From Streptomyces sp. TG1A-60 (GTDB taxonomy: Bacteria > Actinomycetota > Actinomycetes > Streptomycetales > Streptomycetaceae): a DNA stretch of 64,000 nt. The notes beneath the pieces are model-generated. The model had not been told where the DNA came from. It did no database searches and saw nothing but the letters and a program-made list of their open reading frames with translations. This document shows positions 40,819 to 49,122 of this stretch, piece after piece. The stretch is taken from the NCBI RefSeq assembly GCF_037201975.1, contig NZ_CP147520.1:434001-498000 (forward strand), read 5' to 3'. The position numbers and the translations under genes were made by a program. Position 1 is the stretch's first letter, and every line of letters begins with the position of its first letter.

Positions 40819-42204
40819 TCACCGGCCGCTGGCCTCGGAGCCGTCGTCCACGCCTTGGCCGGCTCCGGATTCTTCCTGCCGGCCCGCGCCCTGGTCGCCG
40901 ATGCCCTGCTCCTGGCCCGCACCGGCCTCTTCGCCGACGCCCGCGGCGTCACCCGCACCGGCACCGGCGGCGCCCGCTGCCTCACCGGCACCGGCGGCGC
41001 CACCGGCCTCCTCGCCGACCCCCGCGGCGTCACCGGCACCGCCGACGGCCTCCTCGCCGACGCCCGCGCCGCCGTCGCCGATGGTCGCGCCGACCGCCGC
41101 GAGGGCGGTGGTGACCGGCTGGAAGAAGGTCTCGCCGCCGACCGTGCAGTCGCCGCTGCCGCCGGAGGTCAGACCGACGGCCTGACCGTCCTCGGTGAAC
41201 AGGGAGCCGCCGCTGTCGCCGGGCTCGGCGCAGACGTTGGTCTGGATGAGGCCGGTGACCGTGCCCTCGGGGTAGTTCACCGTGGCGTCGAGACCGGTGA
41301 CCTGGCCGTCGGCGAGACCGGTGGTGCTGCCCATGCGGAAGACCTGGAGGCCGACCGCCGCCTCGCCGGCCGCGTCGATGTTCAGGGTCCGGCCGTTGCC
41401 GAGGTCGACCGTGCTGGCCGCCTGGGTCGCCGCGTCGTTGTACTTGACCAGGGCGAAGTCACCGGTGCCGGGGAACGTGGCGGTCGCCGCGTCGACGGTG
41501 CCGATCGGCGCGCCGCCCTCCTCCTCGGACCACTCGGCCTCCGCGACACCGCAGTGACCGGCGGTCAGGAAGCCCGGGGTGCCGTCGGCGTTGGTGACGT
41601 TGAAGCCGGCCGAGCAGCGCGCGCCGCCGCCGAAGATGGCGTCGCCGCCTTCCAGGAAGGTCTTGAAGGTGCCGGCCGACTTCTTGATGGTCGCCATGTC
41701 CGAGCCGAGCGACTTGACCGTCGACTCGATGGTGTCCCAGTTCTCGCCCGTGACCGTGGAGTCAGCGGTGACCTGGATCTTGTTCGTGCGGGGGTCGACG
41801 GCCCAGGCGGTGCCCGGGATGGTCGCCTCCGCCTTCAGCGTCCTGGCGCCGGCTTCGAGTTCGGTGAGGCTGTTGCCGACCTCGCGTACCACCGCGCCGG
41901 CCTGCCGGGCCTGGATGATCACGTTGTTGTCGTCACCGTCGATCTCAAGCCCGTCGATGACATTGACGACGAGCTGCTTCTCGCCGGAGTCGTAATACGC
42001 GCCTGCGAACGCGTCGCCGAGAAGCGCCTCCAGTTGGGAGGCCAGGTCCGAGGCGCTGGTCGCTGCGAGTGTCTTCGCCGCGGGGGTGTTCGACTCCGTC
42101 TGCGACGCCATCGCGTTCGGCAGGATGAGGGCCGCCGCTCCGAGTGCCGCCACGCCGCCTGCCGCTATAAAGGCCTTGCGCTTGGTGGCTCGTTTGTGAC
42201 TCAA
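40819..42204 (-). CDS. Streptogrisin-like serine protease with Gly/Ala/Glu-rich tail
   Basis: The 461-residue preproprotein has a signal peptide (about 1-34), an alpha-lytic-type pro-region (about 50-185) and an S1 domain with catalytic H217 (TAGHCG), D249 (GTGDFALVKY) and S331 (AEPGDSGGS). The domain ends at FFQPVTTALAAVG (about 372), where classical streptogrisins stop. Here it continues for about 90 residues of low-complexity GAGVGEEAGGAAGAGEA-type repeats without a membrane helix. The tail may be a flexible wall-spanning or adhesive segment. The fold and triad are certain. Confidence 0.92.
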   Translation of the reverse strand: MSHKRATKRKAFIAAGGVAALGAAALILPNAMASQTESNTPAAKTLAATSASDLASQLEALLGDAFAGAYYDSGEKQLVVNVIDGLEIDGDDNNVIIQARQAGAVVREVGNSLTELEAGARTLKAEATIPGTAWAVDPRTNKIQVTADSTVTGENWDTIESTVKSLGSDMATIKKSAGTFKTFLEGGDAIFGGGARCSAGFNVTNADGTPGFLTAGHCGVAEAEWSEEEGGAPIGTVDAATATFPGTGDFALVKYNDAATQAASTVDLGNGRTLNIDAAGEAAVGLQVFRMGSTTGLADGQVTGLDATVNYPEGTVTGLIQTNVCAEPGDSGGSLFTEDGQAVGLTSGGSGDCTVGGETFFQPVTTALAAVGATIGDGGAGVGEEAVGGAGDAAGVGEEAGGAAGAGEAAGAAGAGAGDAAGVGEEAGAGQEQGIGDQGAGRQEESGAGQGVDDGSEASGR

Positions 42205-42937
42205 CTCTTGACCTCCTGGGGACGGGGTCCGTGCCGCCGTCCGGCGGGTGAACTGGGGGCGCCTGGTTGCCCGTTGGTACGGACGGTTCCGGCAGGGTGT
42301 TCAACGGCCCGCGAAAAGATGCCGACATTCTGTTTCGCGAAGTGCGCTACAGCCGCAGTTCGAACGGCATTTCACGACTTCCCGCCCGCGCCGCCGCATC
42401 CCGGCACCCGCGCGCCCCTGCCGTTCCTCTGTACGGGGCCACGAGAACGACACCCCCGCGACTCTGCCGGCCGCCGGCGGGTCCGACACATTCGGCCACC
42501 GTCCGGTAGCCGTCCGTTCATGGCGTCGGCCGGAAAACCGGCTGCGGGGAATCTCCACACCGAATGCCCAGCGAAGTCACGGCGGACAAGGGGTCCACAC
42601 AGGGATCCGGCACCCGACGCGTCTTTGAGGAGGGACTGTCCCATTCGTTTCCCGGCTGGCAATGAACGTCGTATGACGATGCCGGGTCCGGTGTGAAGAA
42701 GCTGCCACCAAGGGGTGCGCAGGCCTGCACGGTTGGACCGTCATGGTCACCAAGTGCCCTGATGGGAAGCGGTGTTGATTGGAGGTTCGCAGCGGCGATC
42801 TGCTTTGATCCATCGCACCGCGGGGGCCGCAAACCTCTCGGAGACGAGAGGTGAGGCACCCCGTACGCGGCCGTCGTTCTGTCCCCAGAAGGGGGCCGCT
42901 CCCCCTTATGAATATCCATACGAAGGGAAGTTCCCAC
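42205..42937. other. Long intergenic region upstream of bacteriocin operon
   Basis: This 733-base gap separates a protease gene (minus) and the precursor peptide gene (plus). Nothing in it has protein character. Near the right end, CCTCTCG and CGAGAGG (42834-42851) form a 7-base stem with a GAGA tetraloop about 87 bases before the precursor ATG, which could lie in its 5' leader. Both genes probably have their promoters here, and the size leaves room for a small RNA. Confidence 0.5.
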
Positions 42938-43153
42938 ATGAACTCCACCCCCCAGGTCGAGACCGCCGAGATCTCGGACGCCGCCCTCGACGCCGTCTCC
43001 GGTGGCCTGTCCGTCAACGCCGTCGGCACCGTCACCGGCGCGCTGGACGGCGTCGCCCCGGTCTCCGGCCTGGTCAACACGGCCGTCGGCACCGTCGAAG
43101 GTGTCACCGGCCTGAACACGGCCCCGGTCACCAGCCTGGTCGCCGGTCTCTGA
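42938..43153 (+). CDS. Double-glycine bacteriocin-like precursor peptide
   Basis: The 71-residue peptide has a leader of about 23 residues ending EISDAALDAVSGG, a double-glycine cleavage site at residues 22-23. The predicted core (24-71) is LSVNAVGTVTGALDGVAPVS and a similar second half; it has no Cys and few charges, and is rich in Gly, Val, Thr and Ala. Two imperfect repeats can be aligned, N27-V46 and T48-V68 (AVGTVxG ... APV(S/T)xLV). GAAGGGAAG precedes the ATG; an upstream ATG at 42908 is less likely. Three export genes follow. Some databases may label such peptides type A2 lantipeptides, but without Cys no lanthionine can form. Confidence 0.8.
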   Translation: MNSTPQVETAEISDAALDAVSGGLSVNAVGTVTGALDGVAPVSGLVNTAVGTVEGVTGLNTAPVTSLVAGL

Positions 43154-43171
43154 TCCAGCCCCGGCGCCGCT

Positions 43172-43205
43172 GAGTCCCGGAACCGCCTGACCGGTTCCGG
43201 GACTC
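43172..43205 (+). terminator. Hairpin between precursor and export genes
   Basis: GAGTCCCGGAACC and GGTTCCGGGACTC form a perfect 13-base stem with an 8-base loop. A partial terminator here would give high precursor and lower transporter expression. Confidence 0.75.
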
Positions 43206-43257
43206 TCGGGGTACCTGGAAGTCCTTTGTCTCCCGTCGCGCAGGTGAGGGAAGTCCC

Positions 43258-44064
43258 GTGCAGTTCCGCCAACAAGCCCTCGCCAAGCTGCAGTCGCCGG
43301 AGGAACTCGACCTCCCGGTGCGCTTCGCGCGCCCACAGGGCTGGCTCGTGCTGGCCGTGACGGTGGTCGCCATGGCCGGCGCGTCGGTGTGGGCCGTCAC
43401 GGGCTCCGTCGCCTCCACGGTCAGCGCGCCCGCCGTCCTCACGCACGGGCAGGGCAGTTACGTCCTGCAGAGCCCCGTCGCCGGCCAGGTCACCGCCGTC
43501 CTCGCGCAGCAGGGCGAGCGGCTGCCCGCCAAGTCCCCGGTCCTGAAGGTCGCCACCGCCGACGGCGAGAGCGTCGTACGGTCCGTCGCGGCCGGCCGCG
43601 TCTCCACGCTCGCCGCCACCGTCGGCCAGATCATCCGGACCGGCGCCGACGTGGCGGCCGTCGAGAAGGTCGCCGACCCCGACGACCCGCTGTACGCCAC
43701 GGTGTACGCCCCCGCCGAGAGCGCCGCCTCGATCCCGAAGAACGCCCAGGTGGACCTGACCGTGCAGTCGGCGCCCACCCAGCGGTACGGCGTGCTGCGC
43801 GGCCATGTGGCGAAGGTGGACCGCATCCCCCAGACCCCGCAGTCGATCGGCGCGTTCCTCGGAGACAGCCAGCTCGGCGAGCAGTTCACCAGGAAGGGCC
43901 GGCCGGTGGCCGTCACCGTACGGCTGGACCCGGAGGCGTCGACCGAGTCGGGCTACGAGTGGTCCTCGCAGGACGGGCCGCCGTTCGAGCTGACCTCCAT
44001 GACCATGGCCACGGGTTCGATCCGTATGGCCGACGAGCGTCCGATCGATTGGCTGCTCCCGTGA
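43258..44064 (+). CDS. NHLM bacteriocin system HlyD-type secretion adaptor
   Basis: GTG at 43258 follows GAGGGAAG. The 268-residue protein has a short cytoplasmic N-terminus, one membrane helix (WLVLAVTVVAMAGASVWAV, about 29-47), a biotinyl-lipoyl-like hairpin (SPVAGQVTAVLAQQGERLPAKSPVL) and a beta-barrel domain. It matches the membrane-fusion-type secretion protein of NHLM clusters, which works with the two ABC proteins downstream. In a Gram-positive it should link the exporter to the cell exterior. Its stop overlaps the next GTG. Confidence 0.85.
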   Translation: MQFRQQALAKLQSPEELDLPVRFARPQGWLVLAVTVVAMAGASVWAVTGSVASTVSAPAVLTHGQGSYVLQSPVAGQVTAVLAQQGERLPAKSPVLKVATADGESVVRSVAAGRVSTLAATVGQIIRTGADVAAVEKVADPDDPLYATVYAPAESAASIPKNAQVDLTVQSAPTQRYGVLRGHVAKVDRIPQTPQSIGAFLGDSQLGEQFTRKGRPVAVTVRLDPEASTESGYEWSSQDGPPFELTSMTMATGSIRMADERPIDWLLP

Positions 44065-46298
44065 CCCCCGCCCAGGACACCGCGCGGCAGACGACGCGCG
44101 GCAGACGCAAGACCGTCCCGCGGAAGCGCCCGGTGCCCACGGGCGGGGGGAGGGCCGTCCGAACGCCGACCGTCCTCCAGATGGAGGCCGTGGAGTGCGG
44201 CGCCGCCTCCCTCGCGATGGTCCTCGGCCACTACGGGCGGCACATCCCGCTGGAGGAGTTGCGCATCGCCTGCGGTGTCTCCCGGGACGGCTCCCGCGCG
44301 AGCAACCTCCTGAAGGCGGCCCGCAGTTACGGTCTGACCGCCAAGGGCATGCAGATGGACGTGGTCGCCCTCGCCGAGGTGAAGGCGCCGGCCATCCTCT
44401 TCTGGGAGTTCAACCACTACGTCGTCTACGACGGCACGGGGCGCCGTTTCGGCAGGCGGGGCGTCCACATCAACGACCCCGGCAAGGGCCGCCGGTTCGT
44501 GCCGATGGAGGACTTCGACTCCAGCTTCACCGGTGTCGTCCTCGTCATGGAGCCGGGCGACGACTTCCACAAGGGCGGGCGCAAACCGGGCGTGCTCGGC
44601 GCCATGCCCGCCCGGATGCGCGGCACCTCCGGGACACTGCCCGCCGCCGTCCTCGCGAGCCTTCTCCTGGTGGCGGTCGGCGCGGCGGTGCCGGCGCTGA
44701 GCCGCACCTACATCGACATGTTCCTGATCGGCGGGCAGACCTCGCTGCTGGGCGTGCTGTTCGCGTCGATGGGCGCGTGCGTCCTGCTGACGGTCCTGCT
44801 GACCTGGCTGCAACAGGCCAACCTGCTGCGCGGCCGGCTGATCTCGTCGACGCTGAGCAGTGCCCGCTTCCTGCGGCACCTCCTCCGCCTCCCGGTCACC
44901 TTCTTCGCCCAGCGCAGCCCCGCCGACCTCGTCCAGCGGCTCCAGTCCAACGACGCGGTCTCCGAGACCCTGGCCCGGGATCTCTCGGCGGCCGGGGTGG
45001 ACGCGGTCGTGGTCGTCCTCTACGCCGTACTCCTCTACACGTACGACCCGCAGCTCACCGTCGTCGGTATCGCGGTGGCGCTGCTGAACATGGTGGCGAT
45101 GCGGGTGGTGATCCGGCTGCGCGCGACCCGTACGGCGAAGCTGCGCGCCGACAACGCCCGGCTCACCAACACGGCGTACACCGGACTCCAGCTGATCGAG
45201 ACGATGAAGGCGACAGGCGGCGAGGAAGGCTACTTCCGCAAGTGGGCCGGGCAGCACGCCACCACGCTGGAGGAGCAGCAGCGGCTCGGGGTGCCGAGCG
45301 CCTGGCTGGGCATGGTCGCACCGACCCTGGCCACGCTGAACAGCGCGCTCATCCTCTGGATCGGCGGCATGCGCGCGGTCGAGGGCCACATATCCGTCGG
45401 CCTGCTGGTCGCCTTCCAGGCGCTGGTCACCCGTTTCACCGCGCCGATCACCCGGCTCAACGGTGTCGCGGGCCGCATCCAGGACTTCGCGGCCGACGTC
45501 GCCCGCCTCAAGGACGTGGAGAACTTCCGGGCGGACCCCCTCTACGCCCGCCCGGACGCCGCCGAGTCCACCCGCCGGCTGCACGGCCATGTGGAGCTGG
45601 AGAACATCACCTTCGGCTACAGCCCGCTCGACGAGCCCCTGCTCACCGGATTCGACCTCACCGTCGGTCCGGGCCGGCAGGTGGCGCTGGTCGGCGGCTC
45701 CGGCAGCGGCAAGTCGACGGTGTCCCGGCTGATCTCGGGCCTGTACTCCCCCTGGGAGGGGGTGATCCGTATCGACGGGCGGCGCCTGGAGGACATTTCC
45801 CGGGGGGCGCTCGCCGCCTCCGTCTCCTTCGTCGACCAGGAGATCTTCCTCTTCGAGGGCACGGTCCGCGACAACGTGGCCCTGTGGGACCCCTCGATTC
45901 CGGACGAGGCCGTGGAGGAGGCGCTGCGGGACGCGGCCCTGTACGACGTGGTGACCCGGCGTCCGGGCGGCATCAACAGCAGGGTCGAGCAGGACGGCCG
46001 GAACTTCTCCGGCGGCCAGCGGCAACGCCTGGAGATCGCGCGGGCGTTGGTGCGCAGGCCCAGCATCCTGGTCCTCGACGAGGTGACCAGCGCGCTCGAC
46101 GCGGAGACCGAGCTGACCGTCATGGACAACCTGCGCAAGCGCGGCTGCGCCTGCGTCGTGATCGCCCACCGGCTCAGCACGGTCCGCGACAGCGACGAGA
46201 TCGTCGTCCTGCACCACGGCACGATCGTGGAGCGCGGCCGGCACGAGGAGCTGGTGGCACGCGGCGGCGCGTACGCCCGGTTGGTCAGGGAGCGGTGA
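44061..46298 (+). CDS. NHLM bacteriocin ABC exporter with C39 peptidase domain
   Basis: GTG at 44061 overlaps the HlyD stop. The 745-residue protein has an N-terminal C39 peptidase (VLQMEAVECGAASLAMVLGHYG, nucleophile C46 with Q40; catalytic His in FNHYVVYDG, Asp in HINDPGKG), a membrane domain of about six helices, and an ATPase domain (GGSGSGKST Walker A, FSGGQRQRLEIARAL signature, ILVLDEVTSALD Walker B). It should cleave the leader after the double glycine and export the core peptide. It fits NHLM ABC subfamily 1. Confidence 0.92.
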   Translation: MTPAQDTARQTTRGRRKTVPRKRPVPTGGGRAVRTPTVLQMEAVECGAASLAMVLGHYGRHIPLEELRIACGVSRDGSRASNLLKAARSYGLTAKGMQMDVVALAEVKAPAILFWEFNHYVVYDGTGRRFGRRGVHINDPGKGRRFVPMEDFDSSFTGVVLVMEPGDDFHKGGRKPGVLGAMPARMRGTSGTLPAAVLASLLLVAVGAAVPALSRTYIDMFLIGGQTSLLGVLFASMGACVLLTVLLTWLQQANLLRGRLISSTLSSARFLRHLLRLPVTFFAQRSPADLVQRLQSNDAVSETLARDLSAAGVDAVVVVLYAVLLYTYDPQLTVVGIAVALLNMVAMRVVIRLRATRTAKLRADNARLTNTAYTGLQLIETMKATGGEEGYFRKWAGQHATTLEEQQRLGVPSAWLGMVAPTLATLNSALILWIGGMRAVEGHISVGLLVAFQALVTRFTAPITRLNGVAGRIQDFAADVARLKDVENFRADPLYARPDAAESTRRLHGHVELENITFGYSPLDEPLLTGFDLTVGPGRQVALVGGSGSGKSTVSRLISGLYSPWEGVIRIDGRRLEDISRGALAASVSFVDQEIFLFEGTVRDNVALWDPSIPDEAVEEALRDAALYDVVTRRPGGINSRVEQDGRNFSGGQRQRLEIARALVRRPSILVLDEVTSALDAETELTVMDNLRKRGCACVVIAHRLSTVRDSDEIVVLHHGTIVERGRHEELVARGGAYARLVRER

Positions 46299-46299
46299 G

Positions 46300-49122
46300 A
46301 TGACGTCCGTACCCGAGGAAGGCGACCTCGTCCTCGGCGCGCTCGGCGCCATGGGCACGCCCCTCGACCGCACCGGCCGCACCCGCCTCGACCTCGAAGG
46401 TCCCCAGACCCTGTGGCTGGTGGCCTCGGGCGCCCTGGACCTGTTCGCGGTCGACGCCGTCCAGCAGGGCCACTGGCACCACCTGGGCCGCCTCGAAGCG
46501 GGCTCACTGCTGCTCGGCCCGGTGACCGGACCCCAGCACACCCTGGTGGCCCGGCCGCTCCGCGACTGCGTGGTCCGGCGCATCGGCCTGCGCGAGCTGT
46601 ACCAGCACGCGGGCACCGAGACCTGGTCGTACGACGCATGGGGCAACCCCCAGGCGGTGCCCCCGCAGACGAGTCCGCTGGAGTACGCCCTCGCCCTGGG
46701 CGTCGGACGCGGACTGTCGATCCTCTTCCAGGCGCCCATGGCCACCGAACAGGCCGCCGCGCCGACCGACGACGACGTGTTCTGGATGCAGGTGCCACCC
46801 GGCAGCGTCCAGTACGGCTCGCTGTACGGCGCGGAGGCGGCGGCCGACCTGCTGATGGATCCCCGGGTCTGGCAGAGCATGGTCGACCAGCAGTACCGGC
46901 TGCTGGCCACGCTGGACCGCTGGATCGAGCAGGTGGAGCGCACGCACGAGGACCGTACGGCCGCGGGCGTCAAGGCCGGTGAGGCCGTTCGCGTCCAGGC
47001 CGACCGCACGCTGCTCGCCTCCATCGGCAAGTCCTCCGCGACCCGGCGGACGACGGCCGCCGACGCGGACGCCACCTACGCGGCCTGCAAGCTCGTCGCC
47101 CGGACGGCCGGAATCGCCCTCTCCGAGTCCGCGCAGAGCGGCACCGAGAGCGACCGGCTCGACCCGGTGGAACGCATCGCGCTCGCCTCCCGGGTCCGCG
47201 TCCGTGCCGTACGCCTCACCGGGAACTGGTGGCGGGAGAACGTGGGGCCGCTGGTCGGGCACCGGGCCCTGTCGGGCGCGCCCGTGGCGCTGCTGTGGCG
47301 GCGCGGCGGATATGTGGCCGTCCAGCCGTCGTCCGGCCGGGAGACACCGATCGAGAAGGCGAACGCGGCGGAGTTCGAGCCACGGGCCGTGATGTTCTAC
47401 CGCCCACTGCCCGAGCGGGTGCTGAGTCCGCTGCGCCTGATGCGGTTCAGCCTGCACGGCACCGGCGGTGACATGACGGGCCTGCTGCTCAGCGGTCTGG
47501 TGACGGTCGTGCTCGGCTCGCTGGTGCCGATCGCGACGGGCAGGATCCTCGGCGAGTACGTGCCGAAGGCGCAGGAGAACCTGATCGTGCTGCTCTGCCT
47601 GGCGATCATGCTCGCGAGCGTGGTGTCGGCCGCGTTCCTGCTGCTGCAGAACCTGACGATCCTCCGTCTGGAGGGCCGTATCGAGGCCACGCTCCAACCG
47701 GCGGTGTGGGACCGCCTGTTGCGGCTCCCCACGAAGTTCTTCACCTCCCGCTCCACCGGTGAACTGGCCAGCGCGGCCATGGGCATCAGCGCGATCCGCC
47801 GAACACTGGCGGGGGTCGGCCCGGTGCTCGCCCAGTCGGTGACCGTCGGCGCGGTGAACCTCGGTCTGCTGCTCTGGTACAGCGTCCCGATGGCGCTGGC
47901 CGCGATCGGCATGCTCGTGGTGGTGGCCGCCGTGTTCCTGGGACTCGGCCTGTGGCAGGTGCGCTGGCAGCGCCGCCTGGTGGTGTTGGGCAACAAGCTG
48001 AACAACCAGGCCTTCCAGACCCTGCGCGGCCTGCCGAAGCTGCGCGTGGCCGCCGCCGAGAACTACGCGTACGCGGCCTGGGCGGGCGAGTTCGCACGCA
48101 GCCGCGAGCTCCAGCGGAAGGTCGGGGGCATCAAGAATCTCAACACGGTGCTGGGCGCGGTGTATCTCCCTCTCTGCACCCTGCTGATCTTCATGCTGCT
48201 GGCGGGCCCGGCGCGCGGCTCGATGTCGGCGGCGGAGTTCCTGACCTTCAACACCTCGGTGACGATGCTCCTCACCTCGGTCACCCAGCTCACCGGCGCG
48301 TTCGTGTCGGCGGTCGCCGTTCTCCCGCTCTTCGAGCAGATCAAGCCGGTGCTGGAGGCGAGCCCGGAGGTCCGCACGGCGAGCACCCGCCCGGGGATCC
48401 TGTCGGGCGCGTTGGAGGCCCGCCGCCTGTCCTTCCGCTACGCCGACGACGGCCCCCTCGTCCTCGACGAGGTGTCCTTCGGCATCGAACCCGGCGAGTT
48501 CGTGGCGATCGTGGGCCCGAGCGGCTGCGGGAAGTCAACCCTGTTGCGCCTGCTCATCGGCTTCGACAAGCCGGTCTCCGGAAGCGTCCTGTACGACGGC
48601 CAGGATCTGAGCGCCCTCGACCAGTCCGCCGTACGCCGCCAGTGCGGTGTCGTCCTCCAGCACGCCCAGCCGTTCACCGGCTCCATCCTCGACGTCATCT
48701 GCGGCACCGAACCGTTCACGCCCGAGGAGGCGATGGCGGCGGCCGAGATGGCGGGTCTCGCCGAGGACATCAACCGCATGCCGATGGGCCTGCACACCAT
48801 CGTCCAGGGCAACGGAGCGATCTCCGGCGGCCAGCGCCAGCGCCTGATGATCGCCCAGGCCCTCATCCGCCGCCCCCGCATCCTCTTCTTCGACGAAGCC
48901 ACCAGCGCCCTGGACAACGAGACCCAGCGCACCGTCATCGAAAGCACCCGCGCCCTCAACGCCACCCGCGTCGTCATCGCCCACCGCCTCTCCACGGTCA
49001 TGGACGCCGACCGGGTGGTGGTCATGGAGGACGGCAAGGTCGCGGAGGTGGGCCCACCCGCCCACCTGCTCGCGGACACGGACGGACGCCTGCACGAGCT
49101 GGTACGCCGACAGATGGCGTGA
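46300..49122 (+). CDS. NHLM bacteriocin ABC transporter, second subunit
   Basis: The 940-residue protein is the long NHLM ABC type 2: an N-terminal region of about 360 residues with a cyclic-nucleotide-binding-like beta-roll (about 1-110) and no peptidase Cys, a membrane domain (about 385-650), and an ATPase with GPSGCGKST, ISGGQRQRLMIAQALIRRP and ILFFDEATSALD. It starts one base after the preceding stop. The two ABC proteins probably form a heterodimer with the HlyD adaptor. About 115 bases of empty DNA follow. Confidence 0.92.
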   Translation: MTSVPEEGDLVLGALGAMGTPLDRTGRTRLDLEGPQTLWLVASGALDLFAVDAVQQGHWHHLGRLEAGSLLLGPVTGPQHTLVARPLRDCVVRRIGLRELYQHAGTETWSYDAWGNPQAVPPQTSPLEYALALGVGRGLSILFQAPMATEQAAAPTDDDVFWMQVPPGSVQYGSLYGAEAAADLLMDPRVWQSMVDQQYRLLATLDRWIEQVERTHEDRTAAGVKAGEAVRVQADRTLLASIGKSSATRRTTAADADATYAACKLVARTAGIALSESAQSGTESDRLDPVERIALASRVRVRAVRLTGNWWRENVGPLVGHRALSGAPVALLWRRGGYVAVQPSSGRETPIEKANAAEFEPRAVMFYRPLPERVLSPLRLMRFSLHGTGGDMTGLLLSGLVTVVLGSLVPIATGRILGEYVPKAQENLIVLLCLAIMLASVVSAAFLLLQNLTILRLEGRIEATLQPAVWDRLLRLPTKFFTSRSTGELASAAMGISAIRRTLAGVGPVLAQSVTVGAVNLGLLLWYSVPMALAAIGMLVVVAAVFLGLGLWQVRWQRRLVVLGNKLNNQAFQTLRGLPKLRVAAAENYAYAAWAGEFARSRELQRKVGGIKNLNTVLGAVYLPLCTLLIFMLLAGPARGSMSAAEFLTFNTSVTMLLTSVTQLTGAFVSAVAVLPLFEQIKPVLEASPEVRTASTRPGILSGALEARRLSFRYADDGPLVLDEVSFGIEPGEFVAIVGPSGCGKSTLLRLLIGFDKPVSGSVLYDGQDLSALDQSAVRRQCGVVLQHAQPFTGSILDVICGTEPFTPEEAMAAAEMAGLAEDINRMPMGLHTIVQGNGAISGGQRQRLMIAQALIRRPRILFFDEATSALDNETQRTVIESTRALNATRVVIAHRLSTVMDADRVVVMEDGKVAEVGPPAHLLADTDGRLHELVRRQMA

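Follow-up and report, generated by a model that had tools for sequence, protein, structure and literature searches.

A conserved Streptomyces exporter operon for a cysteine-free double-glycine peptide, and unlinked peptide genes that share its leader and an upstream element

In Streptomyces coelicolor, the genes sco0753-0756 encode a 77-amino acid hydrophobic, cysteine-free peptide followed by an HlyD homologue and two ATP-binding cassette (ABC) proteins, and the conservation of this locus in many Streptomyces, its gene order and the likely co-export have already been noted (PMC6629963). An activated allele of sco5282, which gives dispersed growth, raises sco0753 most (log2 6.3) and sco0754-0756 by 4.25-4.4 on the same scale, and in the null mutant the peptide gene and the exporter genes are hardly expressed (PMC6629963). 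An aor1 mutant likewise shows higher expression of sco0753 (PMC5733086), and a ppm1 mutant higher expression of sco0756 (PMC5882110). The present work concerns an operon in a 64,000-nucleotide stretch of the genome of Streptomyces sp. TG1A-60 (contig NZ_CP147520.1, positions 434,001 to 498,000; hereafter the window), which on description and gene order is very probably the same locus: here too the gene of a cysteine-free hydrophobic peptide is followed by those of an HlyD-like protein and of two ABC proteins, the peptide having 71 rather than the published 77 amino acids, a difference that probably reflects an upstream start. Because PMC6629963 describes sco0753-0756, the finding as originally predicted from the window is largely in print and the operon itself is largely known. 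What is new is a set of genes, unlinked to the operon, whose products carry the leader of the operon peptide, together with an upstream element that these genes share with the operon, neither of which is mentioned in the available passages of PMC6629963, whose main text also lacks the gene-number ranges expected for unlinked genes in S. coelicolor; a search of the open-access literature likewise returned no report of leader-sharing unlinked peptides in Streptomyces.

The operon genes and the element that precedes them are as follows, in the coordinates of the window.

42938..43153, forward strand: double-glycine (GG) precursor peptide, 71 amino acids, leader 1-23, core 24-71
43258..44064, forward strand: HlyD-type adaptor, TIGR03794 145.9 bits (below the cut-off of 156.2), PF13437 45.6 bits
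44061..46298, forward strand: C39-peptidase ABC exporter (NHLM ABC1), TIGR03796 1020.8 bits, PF03412 122 bits, putative start codon
46300..49122, forward strand: second ABC permease/ATPase (NHLM ABC2), TIGR03797 887.7 bits
42775..42782, forward strand: upstream half TTGATTGG of the shared bipartite element, [CT]TGG about 20 nucleotides before the second half
42801..42810, forward strand: shared element TGCTTTGATC, the sole exact copy in the 7.83-Mb genome

The operon and its conservation, the lack of a modifying enzyme in it, the sharing of the leader and of the upstream element, and the co-occurrence of leader and exporter can all be read directly from the genomes. Both ABC proteins score above the NCBIfam cut-offs for their NHLM families (853.3 bits for TIGR03796 and 709.4 bits for TIGR03797), and the HlyD protein is a clear homologue whose score lies just below its curated cut-off. 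The C39 match in ABC1 is the only PF03412 match across the genome, and ABC1 contains the stretches ECGAA, NHYVV and INDPG, which we take to be the catalytic C39 motifs. Matches to HlyD, ABC1 and ABC2 lie downstream of the precursor in all of the 80 close loci (the top-ranking 80 among 381 related sites found in named genomes), and also in 20/20 divergent loci of the family. The operon is intact, and the cleavage and export set that the original prediction described was recovered gene for gene and in the same order; no modifying enzyme is encoded within or between the four genes, again as predicted, and an immunity gene was not recognised there either, with no extra gene between the precursor and ABC2 in the window.

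The precursor consists of the leader MNSTPQVETAEISDAALDAVSGG and a 48-residue core which contains no cysteine and has a net charge of -2, a hydropathy of +1.0 and, as computed from the window sequence for the unmodified form, an average mass of 4420 Da. A database search found 614 homologous proteins, and among the best 120, many of which are named “type A2 lantipeptide”, none contains cysteine and 114 contain at least two GxxxG motifs; cysteine is also absent from all 41 sequences of a wider alignment. In 20 divergent family members the leader is kept and the core, 43-56 residues long, varies, with cysteine in none of the 20. The precursors of close relatives are at least 75% identical among the matches listed, and a dN/dS of 0.49 for the core and 0.32 for the leader across 81 loci (rough estimates, given the strong codon bias) indicates that both are under purifying selection. 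The two imperfect copies of a repeat unit that had been predicted in the core are real in the window, where only 6/2000 composition shuffles reach the score of the repeat AVGTVxG...APVxxLV. As a family-wide trait the two-copy repeat was rejected, as it is not kept in divergent members: in eight divergent relatives, with 500 shuffles each, the repeat score was reached by none of the shuffles in one (L146), whose core has a different repeat unit from that of the window, and by 8 to 211 in the other seven. AlphaFold gives a weakly helical model for the operon precursor (pLDDT 58.6) and a leader helix with a weak beta meander for one of the unlinked peptides described below (pLDDT 56.6); both models are too poor for fold searches.

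Genes outside the operon that carry this leader came to light when 200 genomes of the family were searched and some matches covered the leader alone; 14 loci, fetched at 11-12 kb each, contain small genes in which this leader precedes a different core. In all, 37 unlinked leader genes (14 + 8 + 15) were inspected, and the stretches fetched around them contain neither a match to HlyD nor one above 80 bits to an ABC protein. The 37 cores are rich in glycine and alanine, and 28 lack cysteine and nine have one. A database search with 23 of the unlinked peptides yielded 189 proteins, and in the 119 readable cores from the best 120 there is no cysteine in 65, one in 52 and two in 2. The genomic settings differ: at three loci (L167, L208, L209) the leader gene lies directly downstream of Tad/Flp pilus genes, an assignment which rests on Pfam matches to T2SSF, TadE and Tad for L167 and on similar translations for the other two, and another group lies near a glutamine synthetase gene (Pfam was tested in L163). 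Two different leader peptides are encoded in tandem on one strand, with starts about 0.5-0.6 kb apart, at L243 and L244 (genomes G233 and G389). No second leader gene was detected in the genome of the window by searches with the precursor and leader profiles, which returned the operon copy only.

The distribution of the leader follows that of the exporter closely. In a sample of 392 Streptomyces genomes, searched with a precursor profile (E<=1e-5) and with the ABC1 protein (E<=1e-200), each query matches 284 genomes; 279 genomes have both, five have the one and five the other, and 103 have neither. A leader-only profile of 23 columns matches the same 284 genomes as the precursor profile, so that the leader is present in 279/284 genomes with an ABC1 match and in 5/108 without. 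Among the five genomes with a leader and no ABC1 match, ABC1 is in two pieces in two (G119, G180) and the assembly of a third (G001) is 79% complete. Among the five with the converse pattern, three (G028, G038, G188) have exporters that are 48-55% identical and probably belong to another group, and in two (G120, G320) the ABC1 gene stands at the start of a contig, which may have cut off the precursor. Two or more leader matches are found in 126 genomes, 125 of which have ABC1, with linkage checked for a subset. An arrangement in which precursors with the operon leader are encoded in trans, and found together with one exporter, is therefore present as judged by sequence.

The upstream element ties the unlinked genes to the operon by a second route, and since these genes were found by their leader alone, it is independent evidence. 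An exact copy of TGCTTTGATC lies within 200 nucleotides upstream of the precursor in 75/80 close and 22/37 divergent operon loci and in the same position at 20/37 unlinked genes, a count that rises to 29/37 when at most one mismatch is allowed; in control windows from the same loci there are no exact copies in 2747 windows, and two with one mismatch. About 20 nucleotides ahead of the exact copy, [CT]TGG[ACT] is present in 62/75 close, 14/22 divergent and 17/20 unlinked cases, compared to a background of 115/4160. The whole-genome distribution was examined in 23 genomes, in 14 of which the positions could be compared with those of leader genes and nine of which have no leader genes. In the 14, 22 of the 43 exact sites lie no more than 250 nucleotides before a leader gene, and 22 of the 41 leader genes have an exact site. 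At four loci (L276, L290, L292, L293) the element precedes a small hydrophobic reading frame in a conserved context, with no leader and no TGG half at the usual spacing.

Modification of the peptide by a lanthipeptide enzyme was considered at the scale of the whole genome. There is one LanC-like protein, encoded 3.9 Mb from the operon beside a LanB-type protein and an FxLD lanthipeptide precursor that scores above its model cut-off; these three make up a separate cluster of the class I type (L161, C1:4350000-4368500). The LanC-like match is a 492-residue frame which, at 38.2 bits, falls far short of the LanM cut-off of 304 bits. LanM enzymes also bear a LanC-like domain, and no LanM synthetase was found in the genome by the LanC-like search; a search with PF13575 was uninformative, no control having responded. 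A modifying enzyme elsewhere in the genome, which had been named in advance as the finding that would count against an unmodified peptide, was thus not encountered among lanthipeptide enzymes, other kinds of enzyme not having been searched for. Neither the core cysteines nor the LanM synthetase that define a class II (type A2) lanthipeptide were found, and “type A2 lantipeptide” would seem a misleading label for these cysteine-free proteins in the databases. NHLP precursors are defined by a nitrile-hydratase or Nif11-type leader, and no such NCBIfam or Pfam family appears among the matches to the precursor at E values up to 1; the leader is of the short GG type. The predicted unmodified, hydrophobic, cysteine-free peptide with its own cleavage and export set is supported by these results.

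Three further features lie close to the precursor gene.

43172..43205, forward strand: hairpin after the precursor gene, probable partial terminator, 13-bp stem with a compensatory change
42889..42907, forward strand: possible hairpin AAGGGGG-CCGCT-CCCCCTT in the 5' untranslated region, before the ribosome-binding site, conserved and nearly invariant
40819..42204, reverse strand: alpha-lytic-type S1 protease (PF02983, PF00089), divergently transcribed neighbour, doubtful member of the system

The hairpin behind the precursor gene, which had been predicted from the window, holds up across the 81 aligned loci: its stem is a perfect 13 bp in the window, each pair is kept in 78-81 of the loci, and a compensatory change is seen at one of them, with A-T in 20 loci and G-C in 51. 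The upstream hairpin is GC-rich, with an alternative pairing possible with the preceding CCCC, and was rejected as a switch, being nearly invariant and having no support from covariation; Rfam gave no match across 42200-43400. The S1 protease, which carries a long low-complexity Gly/Ala/Glu tail, lies next to the operon in 78/80 close loci, and was considered and rejected as a dedicated maturation enzyme. Plain synteny suffices to explain its position, because the gene beyond it is nearly as conserved (62/69 loci) and because it is found in only 1/20 divergent loci, there at a distance of 7 kb. In S. coelicolor, sco0752, numbered beside sco0753, is listed among the secreted proteases of the SigU regulon (PMC6295645). 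Among the flanking genes of the window that were compared, the protease and a phosphatase-type gene are the only ones widely kept, and none is a receptor.

We consider it reasonably probable that the locus is a Streptomycetaceae exporter system for unmodified secreted peptides which also serves a co-regulated set of peptides encoded in trans, and that these peptides have a role at the surface or in the matrix of the mycelium. The C39 domain of ABC1 would cut the leader after GG, and a complex of ABC1, ABC2 and HlyD would export the core; the hairpin after the precursor gene would act as a partial terminator, so that the peptide outweighs the exporter. In many species the same exporter would serve additional peptides with the same leader that are encoded elsewhere on the chromosome, and these would be switched on together with the operon through the bipartite element (TGG, about 17-18 nucleotides, then TGCTTTGATC) in some half to three quarters of the observed cases. 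That one exporter serves several co-regulated peptides is the simplest account that the sequence patterns suggest. The weakest step is the last, in which the exported cores would have their role on the cell surface or within the matrix of the mycelium and not as killing bacteriocins. This role is favoured because of the conservation of the peptide, because no immunity gene was recognised, and because the locus is regulated by a two-component system which affects morphology.

The original prediction called the operon a bacteriocin operon and its peptide perhaps membrane-active or amyloid-like, properties that remain conjectural, and as a conventional class II system its unmodified core would kill actinobacterial competitors, perhaps through GxxxG-mediated packing of helices in membranes. 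The GG leader and the C39 exporter are those of class II GG bacteriocins, and the hydrophobic core, its frequent GxxxG motifs and the low-confidence helical model of the operon precursor are in keeping with such a mechanism. We nevertheless regard it as unlikely, and the word “bacteriocin” as undecided or unsupported: the operon has no recognised immunity gene and the same order in 80/80 loci (immunity may instead be unlinked, or come from the exporter, which can itself protect), the core is anionic and well conserved in close relatives rather than rapidly diversifying, the Pfam class IIc bacteriocin model gives 11.6 bits, far below its cut-off of 27.1, and regulation in the published work is linked to morphology. 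A cell-surface role, itself putative, is favoured over it. The peptides might instead be extracellular developmental signals, or pheromones, with the unlinked genes encoding separate signals that pass through the one exporter. GG peptides with C39 exporters do act as signals elsewhere, and ComA, whose structure has been solved, is a sequence relative of ABC1; regulation of the S. coelicolor locus by a two-component system (PMC6629963) also fits. The absence of a receptor among the compared flanking genes, and the length and hydrophobicity of cores of 43-56 residues, which are unusual for a diffusible signal, make this explanation quite doubtful.

A degenerate lanthipeptide locus, in which the annotation “type A2 lantipeptide” would be right by descent, the synthetase would have been lost, and the peptide would be either modified in trans or a relic, is highly improbable. 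The source annotations and the resemblance of the leader to those of class II lanthipeptides speak for it, but the close and wider relatives counted above are free of cysteine, the sole LanC-like gene of the genome belongs to the separate FxLD cluster, and the purifying selection on core and leader and the retention of the exporter in 284/392 sampled Streptomyces also count against it.

Several observations weigh against the exporter system with co-regulated trans-encoded peptides that we prefer. The element and the leader genes are imperfectly matched: 21 of the 43 exact sites in the leader-bearing genomes (1.5 per genome) do not precede a leader gene, although these sites look like background, the nine genomes without leader genes having 12 exact sites (1.3 per genome), near the same level; and 17/37 unlinked genes and 15/37 divergent operon loci have no exact copy, with 8/37 unlinked genes lacking even a copy with one mismatch. 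In two genomes that are nearly complete (G317, G353) there is a single leader gene but no close exporter, and Fisher tests of co-occurrence ignore shared descent and so overstate certainty. The flanks of 15 of the 37 unlinked genes were seen to about 1.5 kb or less per side, and one gene (L252) lies near a contig end, where linkage cannot be judged. The core is more variable than the leader, and the cores of divergent members differ considerably. That these peptides are exported is something we infer from sequence, the unlinked genes could use another exporter, and the link between the published regulator and the upstream element is that of a candidate; PMC6629963 also allows lower matB expression as the cause of the dispersed phenotype.

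If the preferred explanation is correct, a known but unexplained operon becomes a testable system, linked to unlinked peptides by a leader and an element: with the single exporter deleted, several peptides should disappear together, and the regulator could be approached through the element. The operon has been unexplained so far, though its exporter is present in 284/392 sampled Streptomyces and regulation of the S. coelicolor locus is strong (PMC6629963). A broader proposal, which could equally well prove right or wrong, is that one C39 exporter is the hub for a genus-wide, scattered set of non-lanthipeptide peptides, united by leader and promoter element, which together form or adjust the surface of the mycelium, with the operon peptide as the constant member and the Gly/Ala-rich peptides of the unlinked genes as the variable ones.

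Parts of this arrangement are found in known systems. ABC1 matches two solved structures over its full length, C39 domain included: PDB 4ry2 (340.3 bits), which is presumably PCAT1, and ComA, 8hf4 (294.5 bits); the window system differs from these peptidase-containing ABC transporters in that, as in NHLM systems, an HlyD adaptor and another ABC protein are added. Prochlorosins provide a case of many precursors with one leader and one exporter, partly unlinked; they are modified by one LanM and contain cysteine, whereas here there is no synthetase and cysteine is scarce or absent. Chaplins are secreted by the Sec route. They and SapB (the latter also discussed in PMC6629963) resemble the cores described here as small, hydrophobic, secreted peptides with a connection to the morphology of Streptomyces; SapB is a peptide of the lanthipeptide type, and the likeness drawn here is one of description. 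For LanT homologues that lack a cluster of their own nearby, it has been suggested that they may handle bacteriocins whose genes lie at other places in the genome (PMC3951391), a general idea drawn from LanT mining, set out in passages that mention neither the present exporter family nor its peptides. In function, the closest precedent of which we are aware is that of EbfG1-4 and PteB in Synechococcus elongatus, where several small proteins with a GG motif need one C39 peptidase-transporter and the role is in biofilm development, not killing (PMC4997328); that system is cyanobacterial, and it is likened to the present one by function.

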